The notes: generated from the sequence alone by a model not told the origin. DNA of 44,326 bases from Candidatus Bathyarchaeota archaeon (GCA_016927895.1 JAFGLT010000069.1:1-44326); one strand, 5' to 3'; counted from the first letter of the stretch, positions 1,135-31,071 are shown. Translations and numbers: made by a program.

Positions 1135-1826
1135 ATGCGTCAGAAAATGAGCGAATTTGTTGTTGCTAGTGATTTGTTAACTAAAACGTACCAGCTAGGC
1201 GATGCAGAAGTTGAAGTTCTAAAGGGCATAAAACAGGGTTACGAGAGGCGAGTTCGTAGTAATATGTGGGCCTTCAGGGTCTGGAAAAACCACATTGCTC
1301 AATATTATAAGCGGAATTGACAAGCCCACAAGCGGAATACTCCTCGTGTTAGGTCAAGACTTAACAGTTCAAGACTAAAATTTCCTATCGGATTTCAGAT
1401 GTAACCACGTGGGCTTCGTTTTTCAATCTTACAATCTCGTTTCAACCTTGACGGTAGCGGAGAACATTGCGTTTCCAATGGAGTGGAGACGAAAAACCGA
1501 GGAGCAAATAGAAACACGAGTTACAGAGTTACTTGAGACCGTTGGTTTACGGCGCAGGGCAAATCATTTTCCAGCTCAACTAAGTGGTGGTGAACAGCAA
1601 CGAGTAGCGTTCGCGCGTGCCTTAGCAAACGATCCTGAGTTGATTCTAGCTGATGAATCAACTGGAAACTTACACAAAAAACGGCCAGAAAATAACTCAG
1701 ATGCTGCGGATGCTTAAGGCTAAAGGAAAAACAGTTATCGTTGCAACTCATGACCCAGAACTGATGAAACTTGCCGACCGAACCGCTTGTTTAGAAGACG
1801 GGAGACTATCAAGTCAAAATGAGTAA
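1135..1826 (+). pseudogene. Decayed ABC transporter ATPase (MacB/LolD type)
   Basis: All ABC ATPase motifs are present but spread over three frames. The first piece encodes an N-terminus (SEFVVASDLLTKTYQLGD). One extra A in the A-run near 1229 shifts the frame; the shifted frame then gives [17 protein letters not shown] (Walker A, about 1240-1290). An in-frame TAA at 1376-1378 interrupts GQDLTVQD, after which the same frame continues with the Q-loop GFVFQSYNL, the signature [15 protein letters not shown] and Walker [13 protein letters not shown] (S replaces the usual P of DEPTGNLD). A second frameshift near 1665 is needed to reach the H-loop TVIVATHDPE and the stop at 1824-1826, which overlaps the permease ATG in an ATGAGTAA junction. 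Three or more independent lesions point to a true pseudogene, although single-base indels could be assembly errors. Confidence 0.88.
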
Positions 1827-3695
1827 AGCTACCTTTCCAGTAAACGATCTCCTACGCAGAAAACTGCAAACAAGCCTAACTGTAGCTACATTAACATTAA
1901 GTGTTGCATCTACACTTTTTCCATTAATCTTCAGCAGGCGAATCAGCTGGGACATAACCGCTACAGGCGAAGCCTTAACCTACGGGATGTCAGCAGTCTT
2001 CTCACAGCTTATCCTGTTCATCGGAGCCCTAATTTTCGCGGTGGGGGCCGTTATAACCTCGTTTATCGTTTTCTTGACCATGAAACAGCGAACTCGCGAC
2101 TTCGGTTTAATCAAGGCTGCGGGATGCCCAAACGGTCTTGTATTTGGATATTTCATAACTGAACTGCTCATGATTACTTTTCTGGGTTGCGTCTTAGGCG
2201 TAATACTTGGTTTTACAGCAGACTTCGCCGTTACCAACATACTTCAATTAAAAACTCAACCGTCACGCATCGATTTTTGGCTTGCACTAATAGTTTTCGC
2301 CGTTTTTTTCGTCCTAGCCCTCATATTTGGAACAAAACCTATGCTTGACGCGGCTGGAGTATCGCCGATAAAGGCGCTTTCACCCGTGCAGTATTTCGGG
2401 TTAACCACGGGAAATAAACTCAAACCGTTATCCCGGGCAGGGTTAACCCTGAATATCGCCTCAAGAAGCTTGTTTCGCCGGCAATCAACAAGCGTTCGCA
2501 TCATTATATTGCTCTCAACAGTCTTTTTGCTGCTTACAGTATCGATCTCTGGTAGCGTAATCGCCAGTGACACAAGCAAGTCATGGATTGAAAACGCCGT
2601 TGGAACAAACATTATTGCAGTCGCCCACGAAGACATGGCGATTCAGTACACTCAACTATTGACAAAGTTTTCAGGAGCCAAAACAGCGATTTCAACTATC
2701 TGGACACAGAACTGGCCGTTCCAGACACACTTCTCCAACGACTAGAAACCCTGCAGGGTGTAGAAACAGTTGACACACGCTTGATTTTGAACGCGCGCGT
2801 CCAAGAAGTAAGCAACTTTACGATTGATCCGGAAACTTTGGCAACTTTTCCCGTCGGCGACAGCCGCGAAGGTTGGTCGTTAATTGTAGGTGTTTACCCG
2901 AAAAAAGTCACAACATCATGGTCAATTAAAGGGAGCTTCTTGAATACAGAAGACACAGATGGAGCTGTCATCGGCGATTCCATATCGCAAAAAATGTTCT
3001 CAATCGACCCCAAAGCAGAGATTTACAGTTCAGACCCTTTATGCCAAGGAATCAGACTGTAAAATAGCACGTTCGGCATAGTAGGCGTTTGTGTAGATCC
3101 CATAAATAATGGAAAAGTCACTTATATTTCACTTGAAAAACTGCAAAACCTTACCGATGTATCTAACGCCAACATTGTCCTTGTACAATCAGACCCTGAT
3201 GTCGACCGCTCAACCGTTATAGCACAGATAGAAGCCGAACTAAACGCCATAAATTCGGCTTTTCTCGTTTTCGAGCTGGATGCCGCCTTGCAGAAGAACA
3301 TTGATTTTCTAGGTTCCATATGGTCAACGGTCATGTTTTTGCCAGTGTTTACTTTAGCGTCGGCTGCCCTATCTCTAGTTGGTTATACCATGCTTGGAGT
3401 GGAGGAGCAACGTCACGAATTCGCTGTTTTGCGGGCTATGGGCACAAAGCCTAAAACTGTTGTGACGATACTTGCAGTGCAAAGTTTGATTATTCTGCTT
3501 TCGAGTATTGCAGTGGGAATTTCTCTCGGAGTAATAATTACGCTAATGATTCTTATGCCGCAGCCCGTCGTGACCACCTACACTATATTAGCGATAGCGG
3601 AATGGCTTCTTGCGGCTTTAGTTGCGATGTTCATTTTAAGCCTCTGGCCTGCGGTGCGATTTGCTAAGAAGCCAATATTGGAAATTATGTCATAA
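1819..3695 (+). pseudogene. Decayed ABC permease (FtsX/MacB family)
   Basis: Partner permease of the preceding ATPase. The first frame (1819-2745) encodes an FtsX-type membrane domain with hydrophobic segments around residues 45-85 and 105-170. Near 2675 the frame shifts; the other frame reads SQNSDFNYLDTEL and continues through the extracytoplasmic domain until an in-frame TAA at 3060-3062. The same frame resumes directly after it (STFGIVGVCVDP) and runs to 3695 with the C-terminal FtsX segments (VMFLPVFTLASAALSL, SLIILLSSIAVGISL, EWLLAALVAMFIL). An intact gene would give roughly 625 residues. Such permeases work with a LolD-like ATPase in efflux or envelope transport; the substrate cannot be told. 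Its end meets the convergent nuclease-like gene at 3690. Confidence 0.88.
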
Positions 3696-4486: not shown

Positions 4487-4515
4487 GTATACAAAAGCAT
4501 CACCCAAACACAGTT
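4487..4515 (-). repeat. Conserved copy of dispersed 29-nt repeat
   Basis: On the minus strand these 29 bases are identical to 12151-12179 inside mfnF. They begin AACTGTGTTTGG and end TGATGCTTTTGTATAC. A little similarity (CTGAAG against CTGGAAAA) extends upstream; the flanks downstream are unrelated. The copy lies in the intergenic region upstream of the nuclease-like gene. The local open frame repeats the peptide LCLGDAFVY but has no other support as a gene. Confidence 0.85.
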
Positions 4516-5234
4516 CTTCAGCAACAGCGACCCCAGCCATCGTCAACCAACCGGTAAGAGATAGAGAGAATATGCCTTGCCGACATTTAAACGCTGACAC
4601 ATGCCTCACTAAACTTTTCGATGAAACATCACACGACCCACTTCGAAGCCTTATGCCACAGAAAAGAAGATAAAAACGTGTTATTAACATTTATGTTATA
4701 TTTTCAGTTTAGAATATGGCTGATTTTTAACTGTTAAATTGCAAATCTCAGGGTTCGAAATTTTTTCGCAACAAACAAGTGCATGCATAAACAGTTATCT
4801 GGAGTCAGAAAAGCTCAAAATTAACCTTCTACGGATACAATTTGACCGGTGTACACGCGTTTTCACATTTTCCGGAGTTCAACTTCGCTAAAAAAGGCAG
4901 TTATCGCACATTTTGCTTCTTTTTTCTCGGTTTAATCTTACGTATTTATAAGATTCGTTCATTTTCGACTCCGCAAGAAGAGGCAGGCACACCTAAAATA
5001 CAAGTTTAATGAAAAACCTTGGCTTGAACTCAAGTTACAAAAAATAGGCTCGACTCCGCTCGCCACGTGACACTCTCAGGTTGAGCAACTTTTCAGTGCA
5101 GACGAAAGGTTTTGCCGGGGCTCTGCATATTAAACCTATACAGGAAAAGAAGGTTGAATATTGGCTATAAGCTCTTGCGGTAAGCAAAGTTCTGTGCAAA
5201 GCTCTTTCACCCCATTTTTCTGCTTGAATTTGCA
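4516..5234. other. Gene-poor intergenic stretch
   Basis: No gene can be supported between the repeat copy and the terminator of the beta-propeller gene. Short frames on both strands lack motifs. A locally G+C-rich pocket at about 5048-5125 is described separately as a weak small-RNA candidate. Confidence 0.4.
5036..5125 (-). ncRNA. Possible small RNA (weak)
   Basis: Read on the minus strand, a TATA-like GGTTTAATATG (about 5128-5138) precedes a compact G+C-rich stretch that ends in six T residues (5044-5039), in a region without genes. No known RNA family or convincing conserved fold is recognised, so this is a weak candidate. Confidence 0.15.
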
Positions 5235-8333: not shown

Positions 8334-9065
8334 TTAAAGTAACCCTGCCCGTTTCAGGTTTTCAGGAGAGATTTTTCCTGAATGCAAAGCGGTAGCCACT
8401 AAAACCCCAAAAACTCCGATGCGCTCCAATTCCTTCAAATCCTTAACGTTACGTATGCCTCCACCGACTATCAGGTTAGCCTTGATGTTCCTAAGTGCAT
8501 GATTTAGAAAAGTCAGGTTGGTTCCTTCGCAACTGCCGACTTTTAGCAAATCCAGCACAATAATTTGAGCAACACCCATTGCCTCTAACTCTCGTAAGAA
8601 CGTTATGGGCTCCGCAAGCCGGCCAATCTCAAAGTCGCTGAGGACATGATTACCCATCAAGTCGAGGCTAAGCATCACCTTATTGCTTCCAAGAAATTCA
8701 ACTGCTTCAGCCACAAAATCCATGCTCGGAAGGGTTTCTGTTCCGATGATAACCTTTGAAACACTGCTGTTAAGCACTTCTTTTGCCCTTTTCAGATTCG
8801 CTACGCCAGCGTCAACCATCATTTCAAGACCTGCCTTATCCACAATTTTCTCGAACAGTGAAAAACTTGGTTGTCCGCCAGTGATTGCGTCTAAATCTGC
8901 CAGATAAAGCTCGCTAAAGCCAAACGCCTTAAGCGAAACCGCAACGTCCACGGGGTCAACAGACGCGCATAGCACACTGTTTAGTGACTGGTAGTATTTT
9001 CTTCTGCCCCTTACGGCATGAACCACAACACCGCCGAGAACATCAATAACGGGTATTACCTTCAA
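8334..9065 (-). CDS. HisA/HisF-related (beta/alpha)8 protein of C1-cofactor loci
   Basis: TIM-barrel protein related to phosphoribosylformimino-AICAR-phosphate isomerase. It keeps the HisA-type N-terminus KVIPVIDVLGGVVVHAVRG, YLADLDAI at the end of a strand, MVDAGVANL, KVIIGTETL, and the phosphate-binding end NLIVGGGIRN / GVLVATALHSG. From memory, this subgroup (hisAF-related) occurs in methanogens and methylotrophs near tetrahydromethanopterin and methanofuran genes rather than in his operons; no his gene is adjacent here and it is divergent from mfnB. Its reaction is not established. I chose TTG at 9065, with GGAG at 9077-9074 eight bases upstream, giving 243 residues; the frame is open to 9101 but the extra 12 residues do not fit the family. 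Confidence 0.75.
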   Translation of the reverse strand: MKVIPVIDVLGGVVVHAVRGRRKYYQSLNSVLCASVDPVDVAVSLKAFGFSELYLADLDAITGGQPSFSLFEKIVDKAGLEMMVDAGVANLKRAKEVLNSSVSKVIIGTETLPSMDFVAEAVEFLGSNKVMLSLDLMGNHVLSDFEIGRLAEPITFLRELEAMGVAQIIVLDLLKVGSCEGTNLTFLNHALRNIKANLIVGGGIRNVKDLKELERIGVFGVLVATALHSGKISPENLKRAGLL

Positions 9066-9187
9066 GACAGCATCTCCGCCTTTGCAATGAGTGTTAACCA
9101 ATAAAAAAATCTACTCATAACCTTACAGCTGAGAATTTGGAACAAAAGCTTTAAAGGCATAGAAATTCCGCATCAATATGAACACCT
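9066..9187. promoter_or_regulatory. Divergent promoter region HisA-like / mfnB
   Basis: The 122-base gap holds promoters in both directions. AAAGCTTTAAAGG (about 9147-9158) is a TATA-like element for mfnB, leaving a leader of roughly 10 bases before TTG 9188. On the minus strand a T/A-rich TTTTTTTATTGG (about 9099-9110) could serve the HisA-like gene. The arrangement suggests co-regulation. Confidence 0.4.
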
Positions 9188-9901
9188 TTGAAACTACTGA
9201 TTAGCCCAAAAAACGAAAAAGAAGCCGTGGAAGCGGCAGCGGGAGGCGCGGATATCATAGATGTCAAAAACCCTGATGAAGGTCCGCTAGGCGCAAATTT
9301 CCCGTGGATAATACGGCGCATCAGACAAGTTACCCCAGCAAACATTGAAGTAAGCTGCACCTTGGGAGAAGCACCAAACCTGCCCGGCTCCATGGCTTTA
9401 GCGTCATTAGGTGCAGCTTCAACCGGCGTAGACTACATCAAAGCTGGACTTTACGGGTTAAAAACACCTGAAGAAGCGCTATACCTTATGCGGAACGTCA
9501 TAAAAGCCGCTAAAGAATACAACACTGCAATCAAAGTGGTTACCTCAGGATACGCAGACGCCGCTAGAGTAAACACAGTTGACCCGCTGTCCGTTCCCAA
9601 AATAGCGCATGAAGCTCAAGCGGACGTAGCTATGCTTGACACAGCAATTAAAGACGGAAAAACGATTTTTACGTTTCTGACAAAAAATCAGCTTCAACAA
9701 TTCGTCGAAGCAGCTCACAGTTACGGTTTGAAAGCAGCATTAGCTGGTTCATTGCGTAAAGAGGATTTGAGTGCGGTTTACGCTTTGGGCGCTGACATCG
9801 CAGGCGTGAGAGGCGCAGCTTGCACCCTAAGCGACAGAGTCAACGGTCAAATAACACGAGAAAAGGTTGAAGAACTCGTGGAAATCGTCAAACGCGCATA
9901 A
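9188..9901 (+). CDS. mfnB: (5-formylfuran-3-yl)methyl phosphate synthase MfnB
   Basis: First committed enzyme of the furan ring of methanofuran: it condenses two glyceraldehyde 3-phosphate molecules to 4-(hydroxymethyl)-2-furancarboxaldehyde phosphate. The 237-residue TIM-barrel product matches the family along its whole length. The Schiff-base lysine K27 lies in IIDVKNPDEGPLGAN, K85 in DYIKAGLYG, and D151/K155 in LDTAIKDGK; the numbering agrees with the characterised methanococcal enzyme as I recall it. The ribosome starts at TTG 9188, because the ATG at 9178 is out of frame and quickly stops. It heads the mfnB-D-F-E cluster, 47 bases before mfnD. The presence of methanofuran genes implies a tetrahydromethanopterin-type C1 pathway in this archaeon. 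Confidence 0.93.
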   Translation: MKLLISPKNEKEAVEAAAGGADIIDVKNPDEGPLGANFPWIIRRIRQVTPANIEVSCTLGEAPNLPGSMALASLGAASTGVDYIKAGLYGLKTPEEALYLMRNVIKAAKEYNTAIKVVTSGYADAARVNTVDPLSVPKIAHEAQADVAMLDTAIKDGKTIFTFLTKNQLQQFVEAAHSYGLKAALAGSLRKEDLSAVYALGADIAGVRGAACTLSDRVNGQITREKVEELVEIVKRA

Positions 9902-9948
9902 ATAATTTAAGACAAAAACTTTCTCAACAAAAGGTATGAGGCGAGCTA

Positions 9949-11175
9949 TTGAGGCTTCTTGTTTATGAACACGTTTCCGGCGGGGGCTTCTGTAACAAGC
10001 CAATTCCAGCAAGCGTCTTAAGCGAAGGCTTTGGCATGCTGAAAACGCTGGTTTCTGATTTTAAAGCCGCTGGACACAATGTTGCCACAACACTTGACTT
10101 GCGCGTTGCAAAGTTGAATCCGCCCATTCCCTCTGGTTCTATAGCGCCTGTTTCTTCTTCAAAGGAGACCCAAGCGAAACTCCTTGAACTTTCCGAGCAG
10201 GCTGATGCAGTTTACATTATTGCACCAGAAACTGATGGCGTATTGAAGTCGATTGTCGAACTTGTAAAGCAAACGGGCGCAAAGTCGTTGAACTGCTCAA
10301 CCGGCGCCATCGCAAAAATATCTGACAAAGCCGATTTCTACAAGGACACGAGGAAAATCGCGCCTCAGCCTGAGAGCATCCTGCTAAGCGTAGCTGAAGA
10401 CTTAAAAGAAATCATTGAAACAATTCGAGACCGCTTGAATTTTCCGGTGGTTTTCAAACCCGTGGACGGTGTCAGCTGCGGCGGAATAAGCCTTGTCAAA
10501 ACTGAGAACCAAGTGGCTCGTGCAATCGCTAAAATTAGGGAGTTAACAAGTGACCGTTTTCTGGTTCAACAATTAATCGAGGGCGCCGCAGCAAGTGTCA
10601 GCTTGCTTTCTACTGGCAGTAAGGTGGTGCCAGTCAGTTTGAACCATCAAGAGGTTAAACTTGAAACGGTAGAAGCGTGTTCTAGCTACAGTGGCGGCAC
10701 GGTTCCTTTTGACCATCCGCTCAGGCAGAAAGCGTTCGAAGCGGCAGAAAAACTTGTAAAATCCTCTCCGGGCTTGAGAGGATATGTTGGCGTGGATTTC
10801 GTTTTGACCGATGAGGCGGCGGTGGCTATAGAGGTTAACCCGAGACTAACCACTTCATACGTTGGATTAAGAAGAGTTGTCAACTTTAATCTTGCCCAAT
10901 CCATCGTTGACGCTGTTCTAAAACGCGAACTTCCGACTAACGTTGAAAGTTGCGGCTGCACATACTTCTCGAAAGTAGAGACGCCTAACCCGACGATTAG
11001 CGCGCTTCAAGAGATGTATGCCTTGGAGGATGTGGTTTCGCCGCCTTTTCCAGTTTCAGGAAACAATGCGGCTTCGGCGCTCATCGCAGTTTACGGTGCC
11101 ACACCAGAGAAAGCTAAGGCGGATTTCCGTGAAGCTAAAAAGCTGGTTCTTAACACTATAAGCAGGGGCAGGTAG
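9949..11175 (+). CDS. mfnD: Tyramine--L-glutamate ligase MfnD (ATP-grasp)
   Basis: Joins tyramine to the gamma-carboxylate of L-glutamate using ATP, forming gamma-glutamyltyramine, the other half of methanofuran. The 408-residue product begins RLLVYEHVSGGGFC, a hallmark of this family, and has an ATP-grasp core: FPVVFKPVDGVSCGGISLV (about 165-185, ATP lysine and glycine loop), RFLVQQLIEGAAASVSLL, YVGVDFVL and AVAIEVNPRLTTSYVGLR (the metal-binding E..N). The start is TTG 9949, with GAGGCGAG about 6-12 bases upstream. The next gene starts 2 bases after its stop, so translation is probably coupled. The tyrosine decarboxylase MfnA that makes tyramine is not in the window. Confidence 0.9.
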   Translation: MRLLVYEHVSGGGFCNKPIPASVLSEGFGMLKTLVSDFKAAGHNVATTLDLRVAKLNPPIPSGSIAPVSSSKETQAKLLELSEQADAVYIIAPETDGVLKSIVELVKQTGAKSLNCSTGAIAKISDKADFYKDTRKIAPQPESILLSVAEDLKEIIETIRDRLNFPVVFKPVDGVSCGGISLVKTENQVARAIAKIRELTSDRFLVQQLIEGAAASVSLLSTGSKVVPVSLNHQEVKLETVEACSSYSGGTVPFDHPLRQKAFEAAEKLVKSSPGLRGYVGVDFVLTDEAAVAIEVNPRLTTSYVGLRRVVNFNLAQSIVDAVLKRELPTNVESCGCTYFSKVETPNPTISALQEMYALEDVVSPPFPVSGNNAASALIAVYGATPEKAKADFREAKKLVLNTISRGR

Positions 11176-11177
11176 CG

Positions 11178-12284
11178 TTGGTAACGGTTATCGGCTGGGA
11201 CATTGGAGGCGCCAATACCAAAGCCGCATTCCTGCGCACGGAAAACAGCAACATTGAACAGATTGAGACGGCAGTTGAGTATTTTCCGGTGTGGAAAGAC
11301 CCCGAGAAGCTCGTCAGCGTTCTTTCAACGTTAAAAAAGAGGTTAAGCGGAAACGCTGAGGTTGATGGTGTTGGCTTAACCATGACTGCTGAGCTGGCTG
11401 ACGCCTATCAAATTAAACGGGAGGGCATCGCGCACGTGTTAGCCTGTGTGGAGAAAGCGTTTGCGGGTTTGCCCGTTTTTGTTTTGGATGTGGATGCAAA
11501 GTTGAGGTCGGTGGACGCTGCCATGTCGGAGCCTCTGAAGGTTGCTGCGGCGAATTGGGCTGCAACGGGCTGGATGGTTGCCCAAATGGTTAAGACTTGC
11601 GTGGTCATGGATGTTGGAAGCACAAGCACCAGTATCATACCCGTGGTTGACGGCTGTATCTCAGCGGCTGGAAAAAACGACTTGGAGAAGCTTATGGTTG
11701 GCGAACTCGTTTACACTGGTAGTCTACGCACAAACGTGGCGGCAATCGTACGTTCGGTTCCGCTTCGAGGCGGGAAGGTGCGGGTTTCCTCGGAGCTGTT
11801 TGCGCAGTCAGGCGACGTTCACTTGGTTTTGGGCAACATTAGTGAGGAGGATTATACAACTGAAACGGCGGATGGTCGTGGAAAAACACGGGGGGAAGCG
11901 TTGGCGCGTCTTGCTCGTGTTGTCTGCGCTGACACTGAAATGCTGGATGAAAAGGAAATCGAGGGAATCGCACGGTACGTGTACGCTAATCAGGTGGAGC
12001 AGGTTGCTGATGGACTGAAGCAGGTTTACTCTCGCGTTAAGTCGTCTACGACGAAAAAAGTTCCTGTTGTGGTCACGGGGCTGGGTAAAACATATCTTGC
12101 GGGAGCGGCTGCGCACAAAGTTGGTGTTGAGGAGGTTGTTGAGCTGGAAAAACTGTGTTTGGGTGATGCTTTTGTATACGGAATGCCGCAGAGTCCATTG
12201 GCATGTGATGGTGTGGTTAAGGCGTCTCCTGCCGTTGGGGTCGCGTTGATGGTTGCGAGTAAGTTGGATGGGAGGTTAGTGTAG
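11178..12284 (+). CDS. mfnF: MfnF, furanmethanamine-glutamyltyramine coupling enzyme
   Basis: MfnF couples the activated furan (from MfnE) to gamma-glutamyltyramine, making the methanofuran core ether. The 368-residue product has the ASKHA/hydantoinase-like N-terminus GWDIGGANTKAAFL (residues about 5-18), VVMDVGSTSTSIIPV near 150 and GKTRGEALARLARVV near 235. Start TTG 11178, two bases after mfnD; its TAG shares a G with the mfnE GTG start. Oddity: residues 326-334 (LCLGDAFVY) are encoded by a 29-base sequence found identically in an intergenic region elsewhere in this window. The C-terminus around it (to ASPAVGVALM) seems longer than I remember for the family, so an in-frame repeat insertion is possible. 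The reading frame is otherwise intact. Confidence 0.87.
   Translation: MVTVIGWDIGGANTKAAFLRTENSNIEQIETAVEYFPVWKDPEKLVSVLSTLKKRLSGNAEVDGVGLTMTAELADAYQIKREGIAHVLACVEKAFAGLPVFVLDVDAKLRSVDAAMSEPLKVAAANWAATGWMVAQMVKTCVVMDVGSTSTSIIPVVDGCISAAGKNDLEKLMVGELVYTGSLRTNVAAIVRSVPLRGGKVRVSSELFAQSGDVHLVLGNISEEDYTTETADGRGKTRGEALARLARVVCADTEMLDEKEIEGIARYVYANQVEQVADGLKQVYSRVKSSTTKKVPVVVTGLGKTYLAGAAAHKVGVEEVVELEKLCLGDAFVYGMPQSPLACDGVVKASPAVGVALMVASKLDGRLV
12151..12179 (+). repeat. Dispersed 29-nt repeat copy inside mfnF
   Basis: Identical over 29 bases to the minus-strand copy at 4487-4515, and 24 of 25 to 19328-19352. It is read in frame as (K)LCLGDAFVY in mfnF and ends TGATGCTTTTGTATAC. The flanks differ between copies. 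Confidence 0.85.
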
Positions 12285-12955
12285 TGGAAGCGGTTGTGAA
12301 GGTTGGTGGAAGTTTGTCTGAGGAGCCCAAAGTGTTGATTAAGTTTTGTGCTAAGTTGAGCCAGCTTGCGAAAAATTATGGATTGGTTGTTGTGCCTGGA
12401 GGCGGCAGGTTTGCTGATGTTGTGCGGGATTCTGATGAGCAGTTTAACTTGTCCAGCAGTGTTTCGCATAGGATGGCGATTTTGGGGATGGACCAGTTTG
12501 GAATGTTGCTGGCGCAGATTACGCCTAACTCTTGTGCGACGTACTTGCTTGGTGACGCGAAGCATCTTTCTCAGACTGAGGCTGTGCCCATTTTTTTGCC
12601 GTCGCGGCTGCTGTTTAAGGAGAATCCGTTGAAAAACTCGTGGGAGGTTACTTCGGATTCGATTGCGGCTTATGTGGCGGGCATGTTGCAAGCCTCTAAA
12701 CTGGTTTTGGTCACGGATGTTGATGGGGTTTTCACGGAAGACCCTGCTCGCAAGGATGCGGTTTTGATAGAGCAGCTGTCACCTGAGGAACTTTTAAAGT
12801 TTAATAAGCGAACCAGTGTTGACCGTTTCTTGGCGAAGCTGCTTTTGGAGGCGCCTGTGGACTGCTACGTGGTCAACGGAAAATATCCTGAAAGAGTCGA
12901 GGCGGTGCTTGCGGGGCAGCAAACTACGTGCACGTTGATTTCCGCGAAAAAATAG
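12284..12955 (+). CDS. mfnE: [5-(aminomethyl)furan-3-yl]methyl phosphate kinase MfnE
   Basis: Amino acid kinase-fold enzyme that phosphorylates the aminomethylfuran phosphate to its diphosphate, the substrate of MfnF. The 223-residue product shows the fold's N-terminal glycine loop VVKVGGSL (residues 3-10), LVVVPGGGRFADVV near 38-51, and the nucleotide side LVLVTDVDGVFTEDP near 140-155 followed by the KRTSVDRFLAKLLLEAP helix. It is much shorter than aspartate or glutamate kinases, as expected for MfnE. The GTG start overlaps the mfnF stop by one base, and the next gene starts immediately after its TAG, so the operon is translationally packed. Confidence 0.88.
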   Translation: MEAVVKVGGSLSEEPKVLIKFCAKLSQLAKNYGLVVVPGGGRFADVVRDSDEQFNLSSSVSHRMAILGMDQFGMLLAQITPNSCATYLLGDAKHLSQTEAVPIFLPSRLLFKENPLKNSWEVTSDSIAAYVAGMLQASKLVLVTDVDGVFTEDPARKDAVLIEQLSPEELLKFNKRTSVDRFLAKLLLEAPVDCYVVNGKYPERVEAVLAGQQTTCTLISAKK

Positions 12956-13849
12956 ATGAATGGTTATAAGCTAAGCTTCGTTGATGTTGGCATGCAAGAG
13001 TCTCCTGTTGTGGCTGTGGTCCGCGGCGACCGTGGTCACAAGCCAGTTTTCGAAGCCTTAGACCTGATTGACTACAGACGCGCGCTAGCTGGTTACGACA
13101 CGGTTCTCATCAAAGTTAACTTCATAACCACAAAGACGTGGGACACGGGGGCCACAACAGACCCCATCGTTGTTGAAGCCATAATTAGGAAGCTGGCAGA
13201 TTTGCCTGTGAAAGTTTACGTTGTGGAGTCAGACGCGATGATAACTAATGCGGATAAGGCGTTTGAAGTTACAGGCATGAAGGACATGTGCAGGCGCAAC
13301 GGCGTTGAATGGCTCAACCTTCGCCATCTTCAAGACAAGGTTACGCTTGAGGTTCCTAACGGTGAAGTGCTGAAAACGGTAACGGTGCCGCGTCTCGTCA
13401 CGGAATCTGCCGTTATCAGCGCCGCGAAACTCAAAACGCATGTAGACACGACGGTGACGTTGGGCATGAAAAACATGTTCGGTTTGCTGCCTGACAAGTT
13501 CAAAGGCAAATATCACCTGAAAGACATAAGCAAAGTCGTCGTCGACATCAATACCGTGCTTCACCCCGCGTTAACAGTCATAGATGGCTTCGTAGGCATG
13601 GAAGGAAAAGGCCCCATAGACGGCACACCAGTCCAAATGAACCTCATAATCGCAGGAACAGACCCAGTCGCCACAGACGCCACAGCAGCCCGAATCATGG
13701 GCTTCAACCCTTACGAAATCACACACATACGTAAAGCCTACGAAAAAGGCTTAGGAAAAAGCGAAGCCCACATCATAGGCGAAAAAATAGAAGCAGCACT
13801 AAAACAATTCAAAAAAATTGAAAGTCTTTTATCCAGACAAAGAAAGTAG
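12956..13849 (+). CDS. DUF362 protein downstream of mfnE
   Basis: 297-residue DUF362-family protein; the family's reaction is not established. Seen: ATVLIKVNF-like segment YDTVLIKVNFITTKTWDTGATTD split over residues 45-65, VYVVESDA near 85, VISAAKLKTH near 158 and TVTLGMKNMFGLLP near 170 (the conserved family signature), then TVIDGFVGMEGKGP near 205 and AGTDPVATDATAARIMGF near 230. It has no iron-sulfur cluster cysteine motif, unlike some members. ATG directly abuts the mfnE stop, so it is the last gene of the methanofuran operon and a candidate for a pathway or tail-modification step; this is inference from position only. The coding-strand base composition changes sharply near 13,480, inside the gene. 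Confidence 0.82.
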   Translation: MNGYKLSFVDVGMQESPVVAVVRGDRGHKPVFEALDLIDYRRALAGYDTVLIKVNFITTKTWDTGATTDPIVVEAIIRKLADLPVKVYVVESDAMITNADKAFEVTGMKDMCRRNGVEWLNLRHLQDKVTLEVPNGEVLKTVTVPRLVTESAVISAAKLKTHVDTTVTLGMKNMFGLLPDKFKGKYHLKDISKVVVDINTVLHPALTVIDGFVGMEGKGPIDGTPVQMNLIIAGTDPVATDATAARIMGFNPYEITHIRKAYEKGLGKSEAHIIGEKIEAALKQFKKIESLLSRQRK

Positions 13850-19278: not shown

Positions 19279-19327
19279 CCAGCCTCTCTAAGAGGAAAAT
19301 CTCAAGTCTGCACCAGAACTAAAAAGT

Positions 19328-19352
19328 GTGTTTCGGTGATGCTTTTGTATAC
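19328..19352 (+). repeat. Conserved copy of dispersed repeat
   Basis: 24 of 25 bases match the mfnF copy (one G to C change giving GTGTTTCGG), ending in the same TGATGCTTTTGTATAC. It sits in the short gap between the convergent zinc-ribbon and glmU-like genes. A small hairpin (CCTCT/AGAGG, about 19283-19295) lies upstream. Confidence 0.8.
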
Positions 19353-19382
19353 GAGTTGACTTCACGTGAAAAAAGAAGCCCA

Positions 19383-23311: not shown

Positions 23312-23554
23312 ATGAAGTTTAAAGCTGAAATGTGCTTGCTGGTTGTAGCTATTGCGCTTTTTGCGTTGAGCGCGTTTTTCTACTCGTATCAGCCATCCAG
23401 TGAAAGCCTAACGTTCAGTGTAGATGCAAGCAGTTATCCTTACAGAATGCAAGCGTTAACGTTTGTTGGTTTTGGCTCAGCGCTGATGTTAACTGCGTCA
23501 GTCTCTTATTCGAAGCGTAGCAAAAATTTTGGAAACAGTAGTCACCGAGTTTAG
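23312..23554 (+). CDS. Small two-helix membrane protein
   Basis: 80 residues with two hydrophobic segments (CLLVVAIALFALSAFFYSY, about 7-25, and ALTFVGFGSALMLTASVSY, about 48-66), a polar loop between and a basic C-terminus. GGGAG lies about 11 bases before the ATG, and a TATA-like TTTTTATTATATG is at about 23250. No family is recognised. It is divergent from the PfkB gene and convergent with, and overlapping by a few bases, the prepilin peptidase gene. Confidence 0.5.
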   Translation: MKFKAEMCLLVVAIALFALSAFFYSYQPSSESLTFSVDASSYPYRMQALTFVGFGSALMLTASVSYSKRSKNFGNSSHRV

Positions 23555-24366
23555 CCTAGAACGTAGCTAACTAGTATCCAGACTAGGTCTCCAAATAGTA
23601 AAGCGACAATCAAACCAATTGTTACAAATATAAGCATGGGTAAGCCTGGCGTAGCCCAAACGTAATCACTGATTTTTCCAGAATCAATCGCGTTGGATAG
23701 ATGTTCAACTATTTCGTCTCTTCCCTCATCTCTTGGTACAACAACAAGTTTTCGGTTAAGCTTGTTTTCACCATCATCATTTTCAACGTCTTCCATGGGG
23801 TAAACGTGCCATTTTTCCTTTAATTTAGCGACAGGAACCTTGTATCCAGTTACGAGGACAACTAGCTTTTTTCCAATGGATTCGGTTGCAAGTGTTCCTT
23901 CAAACAGTTTTTTCCCGGTTGCTACGCGCTTGCTGAGGTTACGTAGAAGCATGTAAAGCCCGCTTGCCGCTGCGAACAAAACGGAGTTGCTGAAAATCGT
24001 TAAGGGGAAGATGTTCTGCGAAAGAGGCGAAATCCCTGAATTGAGAAGCGGCGTGAACAGCATTTCTGTAGAGAAAGGTAAAGCAAGAGCAATGCACATA
24101 AGAGCCTTAGAGTCTGCGCCTCCGAATCCGCCAGAATAAAACAAGAGCAGGGCAAAGGCTGCTGTTACACCGAAGCTTAAGCCAAAAAAAGGCAGTTTCG
24201 CGGGTTCGTATAGTAGTAGTTCAGCAAGGGATATACAAAGAGCGATGGGCGCGTAGACTGCCCAAACACGGTTGCTTACTTCTCTGGTTTTGTGGTCACT
24301 CCAAGAGGCGTAGAGAAGAACAGTTAAGGAAAGGGTAATGTTTGCGGCAATGAAGGCTGTTTGCAT
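23551..24366 (-). CDS. Archaeal prepilin peptidase (A24 family)
   Basis: Membrane aspartic protease that removes class III signal peptides from pilins. The two catalytic aspartates are visible: D24 in SWSDHKTREVSN and D85 in GGFGGADSKALM, the A24 GxGD-type site (here GGAD). Hydrophobic segments lie at about 5-20, 38-53, 62-78, 122-140 and 245-268, with a charged insertion (about 150-225) between. At 271 residues it is longer than bacterial PilD cores because of this insertion. It lies downstream of the major-pilin candidate and closes the pilus locus, so its substrates are probably the pilin-like proteins encoded upstream. Confidence 0.82.
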   Translation of the reverse strand: MQTAFIAANITLSLTVLLYASWSDHKTREVSNRVWAVYAPIALCISLAELLLYEPAKLPFFGLSFGVTAAFALLLFYSGGFGGADSKALMCIALALPFSTEMLFTPLLNSGISPLSQNIFPLTIFSNSVLFAAASGLYMLLRNLSKRVATGKKLFEGTLATESIGKKLVVLVTGYKVPVAKLKEKWHVYPMEDVENDDGENKLNRKLVVVPRDEGRDEIVEHLSNAIDSGKISDYVWATPGLPMLIFVTIGLIVALLFGDLVWILVSYVLG

Positions 24367-24477
24367 GTTGAAGACATCCTAAGAGTTTTCAGATGTAGCT
24401 TATGTGGTTTCTAATTTAAGGTAATAAAATTTTGTCCTCGAACTTACTTTGTCTGATGTGCTAAAAAATCAAAAGAG

Positions 24478-24939
24478 TTATTGGGGTGCTTGCTCTTGGA
24501 ATTCCAAGAATTGTCCTGGATTAGGCACTATCCTGAAGTAGTAGTTGGCTCCTTCTGTCCAAGTGCTGGCTAAGCTGTTTGGCCAATCAATTGTCAGTGT
24601 GGCTATTCCGCCTGCGGAAAGTGCTTTACCTGAACCCGTTATCTCTGTGACGAAAGAGGTTACGTCTGTCATGTTTCCAGAGGAGTCACCAAGCCAAACT
24701 CTTACGATGTAGGTGTCTTCTGTTCCTGAGTTACCAACTGTGATTTCGGTTACGTCGGTATCGAAACGTATGTTTTCCTTGTAGAGTATAACTCCTGCTG
24801 AAGAAGTTGCGCTGCCCATGTAGGTTGATATCCACGCGTAGGTTACGACTATGGCTGCAACTGCGATGACTATCAGAAGCAACGTGGCAAGTATTGGCGA
24901 TATGGCTTTCTTGGAGTTCAGTAACTTCCTAATCGACAT
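24478..24939 (-). CDS. Type IV pilin, probable major subunit
   Basis: 153-residue archaeal pilin. The class III signal peptide is MSIRKLLNSKKA, with predicted cleavage before ISPILATLLLIVIAVAAIVV, the hydrophobic helix that forms the filament core. The rest (about 40-153) is a beta-rich head (AGVILYKENIRFDTDVTEI, GNSGTEDTYIVRVWLGD). The KAISPILATLLL start is typical of archaeal pilins. It is the smallest and simplest pilin of the locus, has its own promoter and AAGGTG ribosome-binding site 10 bases before the ATG, and so is the likely major subunit; the other pilin-like proteins would be minor or tip subunits. Confidence 0.82.
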   Translation of the reverse strand: MSIRKLLNSKKAISPILATLLLIVIAVAAIVVTYAWISTYMGSATSSAGVILYKENIRFDTDVTEITVGNSGTEDTYIVRVWLGDSSGNMTDVTSFVTEITGSGKALSAGGIATLTIDWPNSLASTWTEGANYYFRIVPNPGQFLEFQEQAPQ

Positions 24940-24981
24940 TTTTATGGTACACCTTGTTTGGCTAGGGTTTGCTCATTTTTT

Positions 24982-24990
24982 GTATATAAC
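24982..24990 (-). promoter_or_regulatory. TATA box of the pilin gene
   Basis: On the minus strand GTTATATAC is about 47 bases before the pilin ATG, leaving a leader of about 20 bases with AAGGTG. The 249-base gap to the upstream gene shows that the pilin gene is transcribed independently of the long operon. Confidence 0.5.
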
Positions 24991-25188
24991 ATATGTGAAG
25001 CTGTAATCAACATTTCAAAGTATTCGGAATTCGACAACCAAATAGAAAGATATGGAAAAGAAAGGTGGAAGCAACTGACTATCTTTTCGATTTTTGTGAA
25101 TTCTGAATTCTCAGCTTTATAGTTGGGAAAGGTTATACCCCCCTTATATAGTTAGATTTTAATGTGCATTTGATTGTTAATTGGCGGT

Positions 25189-28035
25189 TTAGCTTTCTGA
25201 GGTTACGGTTATTGTTGGCAAGTATTCGGCGAGTATCCACAACCCGGTTGGAGTGCTGCCGTCAAGTTTGTAAATGGGCATTGTATCATCGAAAGTTACT
25301 ACCGCGCCTTTCCAAGTTACGTCCAAAGCATCATAGAAGTTGTTAACTGAGTTAAGTCCAACTGGAAGCAGTTCAATTGTCTTGCTAGATGTGGATGTTT
25401 TGAGAGCGCCCACAGTAGTTCCAGCGACGGAATCGAATCTGTATAGTTTCACGTTTGCGGTGTCGGTGAACATTATTCCGGCGCCCCTTGTGCCACTTGA
25501 TATCATTTGGCTCCAGTGATGAGCTAAGCAACTGCCTGAGTAGTCGTAGAACGTGCCGGAGCCTTCTGCTACAATTGGATACCCGTTAGATGTTCCGTTC
25601 TCAGTCTGCACTGTTATTGAACTGACTGAGGTCGTTAAGCTTATGGGGCATAAGTCCGTAATTGTCCGTGATTGCGCTGAATCTATGAACATCAGCCTAA
25701 GTTGATAGTTGTAGTAGGTTACATTAGCAGGCAACGTAATCACTATGTTGGCGTAGACGTTTGGACAGTTGGAAGCGCCGCTTGACCATTCGGCTTCTTG
25801 CTGTATGATGTCTCTGACTACACCATTGTATATGACGTAGGCTGCTCCAGCGCCATAAACGCTGTCTTCGTTATTTATGCGCATGAAAGTTGCTGTGCTA
25901 GAAGTGTATGTGCCGATGACTGTTGAGGTTACGCTGAAACTTCCAATATCGAGATGTATTATCCCGTTGCTTAATTCATCATCGTCAGGGTCGTCTCCAG
26001 TGAAGTATTGGTTGGTGTATGCTAATGGTGTTTGAATTGCTTCGTCGCTTCCATCCCACCATAACTTAAATTCGGATACACCGCTATCTAAAAGAAACAC
26101 TACCATTTGGCTGCTACCGAAAACCGTAGAGTTGCTTGTTAAGCCCAACGGGATTTTGTATCCTGACGCCCAGTCCTCTACTTGGAAAGGAACTTCCTGT
26201 TCCACGCCATTTATGGTTTGGTTCAAATGGAGAGATTTAACAGAAATAGGCGGTATCGCTTTTGCTTCTGTGGACATGTCCAAGTTTTCACCTAGAAACC
26301 GCATTGTACCATTCTGTAACCATTCTACAACTATTGTTGAGTCCTCCTGTGACAAAATCATACTAAGATCAGGCTGAGGACCCAGCAACACGGCATCGAT
26401 TTCCCATGAATCTTGAATTGAATCTAAACCATCACTGCTTCCTCTAAATCTTATTGTTAATGTTGCTGAAGTCAAATACGAAGAAACAGAGACGTTTTTC
26501 CACCCGTTAACCAGTCCAGTAAGAGTAGTAAGAGTAGCCCAATTACTGCCAGTCCAAACGTCAACCACCAAATCCTCTGAGCCTAATGAACCAGCTTTGA
26601 TGCAAAGGGCTTGCTGGGGATCCGTGTAATTCACGTTTGTAAACTGCTCTTCAATATCCAACTGGAAACTAGTGCTATCCACCTCTTTTGTAACGGTCAC
26701 CAAATCAACGTATGCATGCTCGCCGCCTTCAATATCATCTGCCCGGAATCTTATTTGGAAATCTCCGATTAAGTATTGACTTTCGTCAATTTCATGTTGC
26801 CAGTGAACCCACTGATATTCAGTATACGCTCCTAACTGAACAATCTGGTCCCAGTCATGTCCATCCCAATAATAAAGCCTAAATTCATCGTTTTCACAAC
26901 CAGCATCGTAAAACCAGAAATCAACGAATATTTTTGATGCGTCGGAGCAATCCATTGAAGGAGTATACAAAGAACCTGACCTGCCCGTGTCCCACCCGTC
27001 AAAATCCGCGGAATAGCCACCATCCTTTACCTCATCGCTTTCCTTATTCCAATTACTGCTTTCATACCATCCCGATGGAACCCAACTTCCTTCAAACGAT
27101 TCGCTGTTAATCAGGGTGATATTTAACGCGCCACCCCCAGTGTTAGTTTCGGTCAAAGTGTCATATGTCGAGTCTGGCGCGGACTGTTGAGCAGTAAAGT
27201 TCGATTGAGAGCCAATGTCAGAAGAAGAGTCAACATCTGAGGTGTCCAGATCCACGTAATCCGCGTCGGTGTAAGTGCTGTTCTGTATAATCGCAGCAAC
27301 ATAACTGCTGAAAGATGAAGCAACCACTATTATGCCTCTGGTATCCTCAATTTTTATGAGGTACGAGTCAGGGTCTACTCCAGCAGGAAAATCAATTATG
27401 TAAGTGCCGTTTGCGTAAACTATGGGATCAGTAGTCGGAGATACGAGCTCCCATGTTGATGTCTCATCGAGATAGTGATAGAAACGCAAGTTCTGTTTTG
27501 CCAAGTTAATTAGGGGCTCAGTTCCGTCTTTATTTACGCTCACAACTGCTTGGGTTTCTGAGGAGCCTAGGATTTCTACGTCTAATCTGGACGATGCAAA
27601 GTAAGTCATGTTATACAAACCGATACCTGCCAAATCGTATGTGACAGAAAGATTTCCTGAACTGAAACTTGCATTCGAGAACCAGTCTGTTCTCAAATTT
27701 AAAGTAGTGACGTTAAATGATGCACTCCATTCTGGTCGGATATCTCCAATGTTTTCCAATCCGCTCTGCAGATAATTCGAGGCTAAAAGCCTAGCATACG
27801 ATGTGTTTCCAGTAACCTGCAAAACTGAGCCGTAATAACCCACTGTGAAACCTACAACCTGTTTCAAAGCCAAATTTATTTCATCTACGGCACTTAATAC
27901 CTGCGGATTATCTTCAACAGTACTGTAACGAATAGCGGAATAAGTGGTCATTACTGCGGCGATTAGAACTACTGCAACAAGCAAAGCTGCAATAATTGTA
28001 AACTGGCCTTTTTTATTGATCTTCAATTTTTTCAT
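25189..28035 (-). CDS. Giant pilin-like surface protein (948 residues)
   Basis: Begins with a class III signal (MKKLKINKKG, cleavage before QFTIIAALLVAVVLIAAV) and pilin-type hydrophobic helix, but is six times longer than a normal pilin. Residues about 50-320 are a beta-rich, N-glycosylation-rich (NxS/T) region. About 320-465 resembles a MAM/carbohydrate-binding jelly roll (SESFEGSWVPSGWYESSNW, FWFYDAGCENDEFRLYYW, HAYVDLVTVT), and about 470-570 a second such domain (GNSWEIDAVLL-like end). The C-terminal part (570-948) is again beta-rich with no membrane anchor. It starts 2 bases after the stop of the upstream gene. A pilus-tip adhesin is the best inference; no enzymatic motif is seen. Confidence 0.7.
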   Translation of the reverse strand: MKKLKINKKGQFTIIAALLVAVVLIAAVMTTYSAIRYSTVEDNPQVLSAVDEINLALKQVVGFTVGYYGSVLQVTGNTSYARLLASNYLQSGLENIGDIRPEWSASFNVTTLNLRTDWFSNASFSSGNLSVTYDLAGIGLYNMTYFASSRLDVEILGSSETQAVVSVNKDGTEPLINLAKQNLRFYHYLDETSTWELVSPTTDPIVYANGTYIIDFPAGVDPDSYLIKIEDTRGIIVVASSFSSYVAAIIQNSTYTDADYVDLDTSDVDSSSDIGSQSNFTAQQSAPDSTYDTLTETNTGGGALNITLINSESFEGSWVPSGWYESSNWNKESDEVKDGGYSADFDGWDTGRSGSLYTPSMDCSDASKIFVDFWFYDAGCENDEFRLYYWDGHDWDQIVQLGAYTEYQWVHWQHEIDESQYLIGDFQIRFRADDIEGGEHAYVDLVTVTKEVDSTSFQLDIEEQFTNVNYTDPQQALCIKAGSLGSEDLVVDVWTGSNWATLTTLTGLVNGWKNVSVSSYLTSATLTIRFRGSSDGLDSIQDSWEIDAVLLGPQPDLSMILSQEDSTIVVEWLQNGTMRFLGENLDMSTEAKAIPPISVKSLHLNQTINGVEQEVPFQVEDWASGYKIPLGLTSNSTVFGSSQMVVFLLDSGVSEFKLWWDGSDEAIQTPLAYTNQYFTGDDPDDDELSNGIIHLDIGSFSVTSTVIGTYTSSTATFMRINNEDSVYGAGAAYVIYNGVVRDIIQQEAEWSSGASNCPNVYANIVITLPANVTYYNYQLRLMFIDSAQSRTITDLCPISLTTSVSSITVQTENGTSNGYPIVAEGSGTFYDYSGSCLAHHWSQMISSGTRGAGIMFTDTANVKLYRFDSVAGTTVGALKTSTSSKTIELLPVGLNSVNNFYDALDVTWKGAVVTFDDTMPIYKLDGSTPTGLWILAEYLPTITVTSES

Positions 28036-28037
28036 TC

Positions 28038-29351
28038 TTAAGCCGCCCCCACAAAACCAAGTTGTAGAATAATCAGCCTAGATGTCCCATAACTCGTGTA
28101 TTCAGAACGATAAAGCCTAGGCTGATAATACGTAAGAAGACTAAGACATGTTAGACGGATATCAGGAGTACGCGTTAAACCAAGAGCCAAAAACGTTCCA
28201 GTAGTAGATGTAGATCCACTATTAACATGTCGATATATAGCCCCAGGAATATAATTTCCGACCGGATTAAAAACATAGAGTCCAACCTCCAAATCGTAAG
28301 TTGATAATATGGAATTCGACAATGCTCGCGTTGAAGTTTGGTATTCTGAAGGGTAAATGCCATAATAATTGCAGCAGTACATTGCTTCAGATGTAAGCGT
28401 AACAACACCGACGTCACTGGTGACACCGTTGGAATTATAAACATAAGCTTGATTATCTAGGCCTTGGAGAAATGCTCTAACGCCGCCTTGAGCTGTCATG
28501 CGCATGCCGTAAATTCCCCAGTCATTCTGCTGAGTCGGGAAAGCTGCTGTGTTGCTTACATAGTAAAAGGGATATCCTACAATGCTTGCCCACGTCCAAT
28601 TGTACTCGTTGACTTTTTGCCCAAGAAAGTAACTGTAACGCGCATACGAATTATCAGAATAAGGCGATGTACAATAAGCAGTAGGTATAGGCACGGCTTC
28701 CCCGCACGTGTTAATAATTACTGCGTTCTCTAGTGTTTCACCTTCCAATGGGGTGCCGCCCAATAGCTGCCCAAGTTCTGCGGTGTTTTGCACCATCACG
28801 GTGTTTACGAAATAGGGCGAGAGTAATTTATACAAATCTTCTGCCAAACTCTGGGCCGTGTAACCAGTAATCCACCATCCGTTTGCGTCACTGCAGTTTA
28901 AAATATACAGTGTACCTTCGCCACTGTCTTCCCCTATCTTTTCGGGAATAACGTTAAAGGTAACGTTTGCAGAAGCAGCCAAATAGGAAGACGCATCTGA
29001 AGTGGTGCCTAAACTGTCCGTGTTCGAAATAGTAATCAAGTTATTGTATAATTCAGCTCCACTGGCACTACTACCCACCTCATAAACTGTGAGGTTGTAT
29101 ATTACGTTAGCCGGCAGAGAAGCTGAAAGGGCAATCTGAACTTCATTCCAGAGCGTGACATTTTCAATGTCAAAAGCGGCGGTACTCAAACCATAGTCTG
29201 AATCCAAAACCTGCAATGTAGTAAAGGACAGTCGCCTAAGATTTACGGGTGAAACCTCTCTTGGCCCTGGCAAAACGGCAAAAAAAGATACACCTATAAA
29301 AGCGCCAGTAATTATGATGATGACTACTAAGACTTCGATTGTACGCATCAT
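28038..29351 (-). CDS. Membrane-anchored secreted protein of the pilus operon
   Basis: 437 residues of unknown family. The N-terminus MMRTIEVLVVIIIITGAFIG is a single hydrophobic segment without the K/R-A/G cleavage site of its neighbours, so it may be an uncleaved anchor or a pseudopilin that starts directly at the helix (E at position 6, as in filament subunits). The rest is exported, with a Rossmann-like stretch near 150-215 (GTLYILNCSDANGWWITGY, AVIINTCGEAVP) that recalls a glutamine-amidotransferase-like fold but has no clear catalytic triad. It is located 2-4 bases from both neighbours, so it is part of the pilus operon. Confidence 0.6.
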   Translation of the reverse strand: MMRTIEVLVVIIIITGAFIGVSFFAVLPGPREVSPVNLRRLSFTTLQVLDSDYGLSTAAFDIENVTLWNEVQIALSASLPANVIYNLTVYEVGSSASGAELYNNLITISNTDSLGTTSDASSYLAASANVTFNVIPEKIGEDSGEGTLYILNCSDANGWWITGYTAQSLAEDLYKLLSPYFVNTVMVQNTAELGQLLGGTPLEGETLENAVIINTCGEAVPIPTAYCTSPYSDNSYARYSYFLGQKVNEYNWTWASIVGYPFYYVSNTAAFPTQQNDWGIYGMRMTAQGGVRAFLQGLDNQAYVYNSNGVTSDVGVVTLTSEAMYCCNYYGIYPSEYQTSTRALSNSILSTYDLEVGLYVFNPVGNYIPGAIYRHVNSGSTSTTGTFLALGLTRTPDIRLTCLSLLTYYQPRLYRSEYTSYGTSRLIILQLGFVGAA

Positions 29352-29354
29352 CTT

Positions 29355-30569
29355 TTAGCCGACCACCTGATACCCTTCTAAACTCCACAAAGCAATAGTA
29401 ACCTGATAAGCCACACCACCAACTATGACTTGTCGCATGTCAGTTGCGACCCACTCCTGTGACGCAGGGTCGCCCCCGAAAACCACAGGAAAAGCAAGAG
29501 AACTAACACCCCAAGGCATCATAACTAATCCACCTTCAACAGTACTTTTCTTGTAAGTAATTATCAAAATTCCCGGATTATCTGTAGGGATGTTAACGAC
29601 TTCATAAGGGGACCCCTCACCAGAGTTAACGTGCCCGTAAGAATTTTCTAATGGCATCTCACGTAAGGTAAAATCATCGGCCAAGTAAACAAGAGTTGCA
29701 TTATACTTCACCTCTGAACTTGGAGGATCATAATAGTCGATGTCAAAACTATGTGCAATTAAGATCCTGCCCTCAGATACGTCATCAACAAGAGGAATTA
29801 TATACGCCTCTTCACCAGAAACTCGCTCGTGATATCCTACTCCAACCAAACCGCCTATATGAACATAAGCAATAAACGAGTAACTCGAACTGCTCTTTGT
29901 AACCTCAACAAATTCCAAAGTAACTGAACCATCTTCGTTGGTAGTAGACTCTCCAGTATCAATACTATAGGAGGGTTGACCCCCGTTGAGTGAAACAGAT
30001 AGCATGCAGTAAGTCACACGTGCATTAGCTAACGGAAAACCAGTGCCATATGCATTAAGAGATAAGCGCAATGGGCTCGCAGCTTGATCTTCTGTAATCG
30101 TAACTGTTACTATCGGCTTGAAAGTAAGTTGAAAACCATATTCGTTTCTGATTCCGAGAAGATCCAGCGCTGTGGTATAATTAAGGCTACTACCATGAGA
30201 CACCAGCAGAAAGTTTTTGTCCCCAATAGTTATATTACTATAAGTCTCGCCAGTTTTCGGATAAAAAACTGAGGTTCCACTAGAAGAAGTCAAGCGCATA
30301 AGGGAAAACGAACTAATCCTGTACTGGGTAAACTCGGGGTCTTGTAAACCAAAACCTGTGGGAAGTTCATCTTCTTGTCCCCAGTTCACTGGAATACCCG
30401 GATTTAACAACATGTTGTCAAGTAGATCGCTGGCTCTAGTGGCAGTTGCTCTGTGACGCTGATAAATAACCGCCGTTTGAATTGTTTGATTAAAAAGACC
30501 AATGAAAAGCAGGGTCGCAGCTAGAAAAACGGTGACTGCTACCATATGGTCTATTGTTGAGCTTACCAT
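29355..30569 (-). CDS. Pilin-like secreted protein
   Basis: 404 residues. The N-terminus is a very short lead MVSSTIDHM followed by the hydrophobic helix VAVTVFLAATLLFIGLFN and an amphipathic continuation with TRASDLLDNMLLNPG, like the N-terminal helix of Tad-type pseudopilins. No classical leader is visible. The exported part includes an Ig-like segment (SPLRLSLNAYGTGFPLANAR, NEDGSVTLEFVEVT). It is encoded 3 bases before the next gene and 5 bases after the previous one, in the pilus operon. A minor pilin or assembly-priming subunit is likely; no other family is recognised. Confidence 0.6.
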   Translation of the reverse strand: MVSSTIDHMVAVTVFLAATLLFIGLFNQTIQTAVIYQRHRATATRASDLLDNMLLNPGIPVNWGQEDELPTGFGLQDPEFTQYRISSFSLMRLTSSSGTSVFYPKTGETYSNITIGDKNFLLVSHGSSLNYTTALDLLGIRNEYGFQLTFKPIVTVTITEDQAASPLRLSLNAYGTGFPLANARVTYCMLSVSLNGGQPSYSIDTGESTTNEDGSVTLEFVEVTKSSSSYSFIAYVHIGGLVGVGYHERVSGEEAYIIPLVDDVSEGRILIAHSFDIDYYDPPSSEVKYNATLVYLADDFTLREMPLENSYGHVNSGEGSPYEVVNIPTDNPGILIITYKKSTVEGGLVMMPWGVSSLAFPVVFGGDPASQEWVATDMRQVIVGGVAYQVTIALWSLEGYQVVG

Positions 30570-30574
30570 GTTTA

Positions 30575-31054: not shown

Positions 31055-31071
31055 ACGTTCTCCTCCATTTT

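Follow-up and report, generated by a model that had tools for sequence, protein, structure and literature searches.

The window analysed here, a 44,326-nucleotide stretch of DNA from Candidatus Bathyarchaeota archaeon (GCA_016927895.1 JAFGLT010000069.1:1-44326), comprises one entire contig (C70) of a 1.69-Mb metagenome-assembled genome (MAG) that is 93% complete. It harbors the methanofuran core-biosynthesis cluster of a bathyarchaeon, flanked by a gene for a HisA-like TIM barrel protein on one side and by a DUF362 gene on the other. Our analyses make it highly probable that the HisA-like gene is the counterpart of Orf17 in archaea, dedicated to methanofuran synthesis and distinct from HisA of histidine biosynthesis, with DUF362 being a neighbor in a particular lineage.

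A profile built from 16 Orf17-type sequences was run over all 121 genomes of the class survey, which were also searched for mfnB, mfnF, and Ftr. Orf17-type scores are bimodal: 31 genomes reach 244-350 bits, whereas histidine HisA/HisF score no more than 142 bits. All 31 carriers of the HisA-like gene contain mfnB or mfnF, and Orf17 is present in 31 of the 33 mfn genomes (Fisher p = 8e-27, a value that overstates independence, as the sample is phylogenetically structured). This pattern is seen across six families (f1, f4, f7, f9, f10, and f14); the two mfn genomes with no detectable Orf17 are G004 and G079, of which the latter is 79% complete. None of the 54 Ftr-positive genomes of the survey having no mfn genes carries Orf17. 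Therefore, Orf17 follows methanofuran synthesis and not its use.

Two side observations concern Ftr. G099 (96% complete) contains mfnB, mfnF, and Orf17, and no Ftr was found in it. Of the 86 genomes of the class with Ftr, 54 are devoid of MfnB, MfnF, and Orf17, among them 19 that are at least 95% complete, so these Ftr-only genomes use methanofuran without known synthesis, be it by scavenging, by another route, or with another formyl carrier in its place.

The HisA-like gene is also physically linked to the mfn genes, with Orf17 located within ~5 kb of mfnB in 24 of the 30 genomes carrying both. In the window, the gene is divergent from mfnB, as an earlier note made from the sequence alone had described, and the intergenic region between them measures 122 bp. 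A scan of 80 MfnB loci with the window proteins revealed the same divergent arrangement in Bathyarchaeia at L011, L013, L015-L018, L021, L023-L025, L034, and L037, and at L014 the two genes diverge at a distance of 4.2 kb. In rearranged blocks (L054, L057, L083, L086, and L088), the HisA-like gene is divergent from mfnD, and likewise in the bacterium Hakubella (L090). On Azospirillum and Thiodictyon plasmids, a HisA/HisF-related gene faces, by annotation, ATP-grasp and hydantoinase/oxoprolinase (MfnF family) genes, in clusters that also hold fae, mch, and methylene-tetrahydromethanopterin (H4MPT) dehydrogenase. Many Methanobrevibacter loci harbor the HisA-like gene ~4-6 kb downstream of mfnB. 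Linkage of the HisA-like gene to mfn genes survives rearrangement, and the divergent pair is kept across domains. As a separate observation, a 1304-amino-acid open reading frame (ORF; L142, 9957-13871) separates mfnB from the HisA-like gene in G063, those two genes still being divergent.

The predicted structure of the HisA-like protein (mean predicted local distance difference test score, pLDDT, 92.9) is a HisA/HisF barrel, with template modeling (TM) scores of about 0.8-0.87. Its sequence is 30-69% identical to Orf17-type proteins, compared with 27-28% to the genome's own HisA and 23% to HisF. The curated TIGR00734 cut-off of 179.85 bits is exceeded by a methanogen member (208.8 bits), but not by the window protein (140.8 bits) or the Hakubella member (138.9 bits), and sequence comparison places the window protein in the wider Orf17 group only, not in TIGR00734 itself. 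Methanogen TIGR00734 proteins (MJ_0703-type) have genes ~4-6 kb from mfnB and the same diagnostic residues, whereas they share 30-34% identity with the window protein and score higher, the Methanobrevibacter member reaching 209 bits at a cut-off of 180.

D8 and D135, at the positions of the HisA/HisF catalytic aspartates in the alignment, are invariant in all subfamily members. R22, Y25, Y54, D85, E110, and H228 are subfamily constants not found in the genome's own HisA, and V occupies the position of the KDG aspartate across the Orf17 subfamily. The window protein thus resembles HisA/HisF of histidine biosynthesis in its fold and two putative catalytic aspartates, but differs by the missing KDG(T) aspartate and the extra invariant D85, E110, H228, R22, and Y25. 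These residues suggest that a similar acid-base chemistry is applied to another substrate. A histidine-pathway HisA, or a bifunctional HisA/TrpF, placed near mfn by chance would belong to the same Pfam family (PF00977) and have a HisA-like fold. Such an identity is nevertheless extremely improbable and was rejected, since the genome has separate hisF and hisA genes side by side on contig C19; moreover, the window protein scores 118.8 bits on TIGR00007 vs a cut-off of 228.95, V replaces the KDG aspartate throughout the subfamily, and the gene tracks mfn genes near-perfectly.

A link between Orf17 and a furan coenzyme is already known in bacteria. Orf17 (PF00977) of Methylorubrum extorquens is required for methylofuran (MYFR): its deletion abolishes MYFR and any MYFR-Glun intermediate, the mutant can be complemented, and methenyl-dH4MPT is retained, i.e., H4MPT is intact (PMC8141765). 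The authors, who name MJ_0703 as a homolog, propose an early step for Orf17 and leave its role open; coenzyme loss upon loss of Orf17 has been shown only for M. extorquens (PMC8141765). Among the methylofuran papers since 2021 in the library searched, none deals with Orf17 function according to its title and abstract. M. extorquens Orf17 (Mext_1835, “HisA/HisF-related TIM barrel protein”) is likewise a PF00977 TIM barrel protein coded together with MfnB/MfnE/MfnF-type genes, but its gene resides within a fae/mch/fhc cluster, whereas the window gene diverges from mfnB in an archaeal host. For bacterial members of the family, the comparison covers the Azospirillum protein (35% identical to the window protein). 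The lack of any detectable intermediate in the orf17 mutant points to a role of Orf17 at the core and not at the side chain. The association with methanofuran synthesis is observed for the family, and an early position of its archaeal members would follow by analogy with the published mutant of a bacterial member.

The earlier note took the HisA-like and DUF362 proteins for good candidates for side-chain extension of methanofuran, here read as lengthening of its glutamate chain. Both genes are indeed inside the cluster, and the archaeal enzymes for glutamate additions past the first are not known (PMC8141765). We regard such a joint role as very unlikely. Known gamma- and alpha-glutamyl additions are performed by ATP-grasp ligases (MyfA, MyfB), and neither a TIM barrel nor a LarA fold is among these enzymes. 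Furthermore, the orf17 mutant is devoid of even short MYFR-Glun intermediates, unlike myfA and myfB mutants, and DUF362 shows no association with mfn genes. The HisA-like gene stands as the methanofuran partner that had been suspected, probably at the core instead of the side chain.

In vitro work with purified enzymes has the methanofuran core assembled by MfnA-F (PMC11365854). The core steps, known from Methanocaldococcus, can be assigned to the window genes by homology: MfnB would convert two glyceraldehyde-3-phosphates into (5-formylfuran-3-yl)methyl phosphate (4-HFC-P), MfnE would make the furan diphosphate F1-PP, MfnD would produce gamma-glutamyl-tyramine, and MfnF would join the latter two. 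Orf17 most likely would act early in this scheme, making or handling a phosphorylated furan precursor next to MfnB. It may apply the acid-base aspartate pair of HisA/HisF to a phosphorylated open-chain substrate, a chemistry that we propose tentatively.

The co-occurrence and adjacency counts suggested in the earlier note, carried out on the 121 genomes, single out the HisA-like gene and not DUF362. The DUF362 subfamily, defined at about 50% identity or more to the window protein with fragments counted, is present in 47 of the 121 genomes, 15 with and 32 without mfnB. It is hence found in 15 of 32 mfnB genomes vs 32 of 89 others (p = 0.30; p = 0.41 for mfnB or mfnF), and 17 mfnB genomes are without it. 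The methanofuran maker M. jannaschii, included as control, yields no PF04015 match, and a literature search returned no paper linking DUF362 with methanofuran. Methanofuran synthesis does not generally depend on DUF362, and a function as general pathway enzyme was rejected because DUF362 is no more frequent with mfn genes than without them (p = 0.30-0.41) and lies next to mfnE in a single clade only.

DUF362 genes adjacent to mfnE were identified in G000 (the window genome), G087, G063, G034, G114, and G096 within the survey, and additionally at L011. The linked copies form one clade (support of 96), with a single origin on the tree, within one family, covering genera g1, g3, g5, and g7; in genus g4 of this family, DUF362 is unlinked to mfn and located beside unrelated genes. 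Twenty unlinked loci have no conserved partner in common. Exceptions, with names from sequence only, are, in genus g4, a beta-CASP-like gene together with a membrane protein gene beside DUF362 and, in family f14, genes resembling class-III aminotransferases and helicases. DUF362 might instead have been recruited to methanofuran within its clade, e.g., for a clade-specific modification, with a linkage that is functional there. The single clade spanning four genera with preserved mfnE-DUF362 order and the 77-88% conservation in nearest relatives would fit such a recruitment; it appears unlikely, given that its closest homologs, found in genus g4 of this family, are not linked to mfn, that 17 of 32 mfn genomes lack DUF362, and that the protein is highly conserved in genomes without mfn as well (63-71%). 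DUF362 is most likely a separate LarA-fold enzyme, gained once as an operon neighbor in the ancestor of part of one family.

The DUF362 model (mean pLDDT 93.1) has LarA-like structures 9q3k (E 4e-4) and 9q3j (7e-4) as sole significant fold matches in the PDB, both weak (TM 0.38-0.42, 10-13% identity), and no PDB sequence relative was found. These matches agree with Pfam clan CL0471 (the LarA/DUF2088 superfamily), which unites DUF362 and DUF2088 (PMC11770544). Unlike for LarA nickel-pincer enzymes, LarC (PF01969) was not found in the window genome or in 33 of the 47 DUF362 carriers; as LarC is missing, a nickel-pincer enzyme is disfavored.

Several points weigh against these assignments. According to published work, MfnA-F build the core in vitro with Orf17/MJ0703 left out, so the need for a further obligatory chemical step is not obvious, and Orf17 might have an accessory or damage-control function instead. 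G004, 98% complete, contains mfnB and mfnF with no detectable Orf17. The assignment of D8 and D135 as catalytic aspartates is based on alignment. Finally, the persistence of the DUF362-mfnE adjacency in four genera speaks to some extent for co-regulation. Either Orf17 performs a step that is bypassed in vitro or it is accessory. We slightly favor a MfnA-F core scheme that is incomplete in vivo, in which Orf17 would catalyze or enable an as yet unrecognized step that is obligatory for the furan branch in archaea and bacteria alike, the probable substrate being a phosphorylated intermediate before or around MfnB/MfnC.

The absence of MfnA was overlooked in the earlier note. In most relatives, mfnA separates mfnB from mfnD (TIGR03812 match of 498.8 bits for the L013 protein), and it adjoins mfnB in ten surveyed genomes. 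The gene is not part of the cluster in the window, L011, L012, L024, and L034, and a strong MfnA is missing in 18 of 32 mfnB genomes. A search of the 93% complete window MAG yielded neither MfnA nor any PF00282 protein, possibly due to MAG incompleteness. Since the window genome is without MfnA, the step missing there is tyramine supply. A different PF00282 decarboxylase of about 470-500 residues is present in G121 (the nearest relative), G084, and G099, and one of 553-608 residues in G052, G078, and G072, which suggests repeated MfnA replacement or, as in M. extorquens, a coenzyme of the tyrosine type. DUF362, placed behind mfnE in a genome devoid of PF00282 decarboxylases, might be thought to substitute for MfnA and supply tyramine. 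This is highly improbable and was rejected because mfnA, too, is part of the cluster in five of the seven genomes where DUF362 follows mfnE; furthermore, nearest relative G121 has another PF00282 enzyme and the LarA-like fold is not known as a decarboxylase fold.

All six ORFs were confirmed (Table 1), and the closest relatives by MfnB are Bathyarchaeota. The HisA-like ORF extends to 9101, with alignment to relatives pointing to TTG 9065 as the probable start. MfnB is full length and matches MJ1099 along its whole length. MfnF scores above its family cut-off (244.1 bits) and MfnE is an unambiguous match, whereas the ATP-grasp protein remains below the NF040722 equivalog cut-off of 400, and we infer from its position that it is MfnD and not a MyfA-like ligase. 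Tight packing, claimed for all four mfn genes, holds for mfnD-mfnF-mfnE, with a gap of 2 bases (11176-11177) and an overlap of 1 base (12284), but not for mfnB, which lies 47 bases before mfnD. DUF362 abuts mfnE if its ATG at 12956, directly after the stop, is used; relatives start ~12 residues later (near 12992), so that there may be a gap of ~36 bases. An Rfam search of the window gave no match. The genome contains two Ftr genes, consistent with the H4MPT C1 pathway that the cluster had been taken to indicate.

Table 1 Features of the methanofuran locus in the window.
Feature	Position	Strand	Evidence
HisA-like TIM barrel, Orf17/TIGR00734-type family	8334..9065	-	PF00977 151 bits, TIGR00734 140.8 bits, model, mfn co-occurrence
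Divergent intergenic region, HisA-like gene/mfnB, 122 bp	9066..9187	.	sequence
mfnB, 4-HFC-P synthase	9188..9901	+	PF04476 268 bits; MJ1099 59% identity
47-bp gap; mfnA (tyrosine decarboxylase) site in most bathyarchaeal relatives	9902..9948	.	
mfnD-like ATP-grasp ligase (tyramine-glutamate ligase, remote match)	9949..11175	+	PF02655/PF18301; NF040722 136.6 bits
mfnF, predicted to condense F1-PP and gamma-glutamyltyramine	11178..12284	+	TIGR03123 327.5 bits
mfnE	12284..12955	+	NF040622 (MfnE) 179.5 bits, PF00696
DUF362 protein, weakly LarA-like fold	12956..13849	+	PF04015 168 bits, survey, fold, tree

MfnF contains an in-frame insert of 15 residues at about 12140-12200, common only to the window and L011 among the relatives aligned. 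At this insert, mfnF harbors in frame one copy of a dispersed ~33-nt repeat (AAAAAcTGTGTTTgGGTGATGCTTTTGTATACG) that is present at 12147-12180, 253-285, 4487-4519 (-), and 19321-19353, where none is expected by chance. More copies occur in G120 (L152) and G063 (L142), and the repeat is reminiscent of the coding-region repeats of Rickettsia. Elsewhere, the window encodes a type IV pilus-like operon (23551-35270, -) with T2SSE ATPase, T2SSF, and prepilin peptidase A24, as well as several ORFs of up to 948 amino acids without Pfam match. Two FtsX-domain ORFs (308 and 135 amino acids) at 1819-3695 (+) may be fragments of a single disrupted permease gene.

CO2 reduction in methanogens and acetogenic archaea begins with methanofuran, which in methylotrophs completes the oxidation of formaldehyde. 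New on the archaeal side are the sharp Orf17 subfamily, its near-perfect tracking of the synthesis genes, and the divergent pair shared across domains. Taking DUF362 off the list of candidates saves fruitless assays, and the diagnostic residues and clean subfamily boundary make Orf17 directly testable. A gene that tracks methanofuran synthesis and not use in both domains, and whose bacterial member is essential for the coenzyme, points to a step absent from the textbook pathway.

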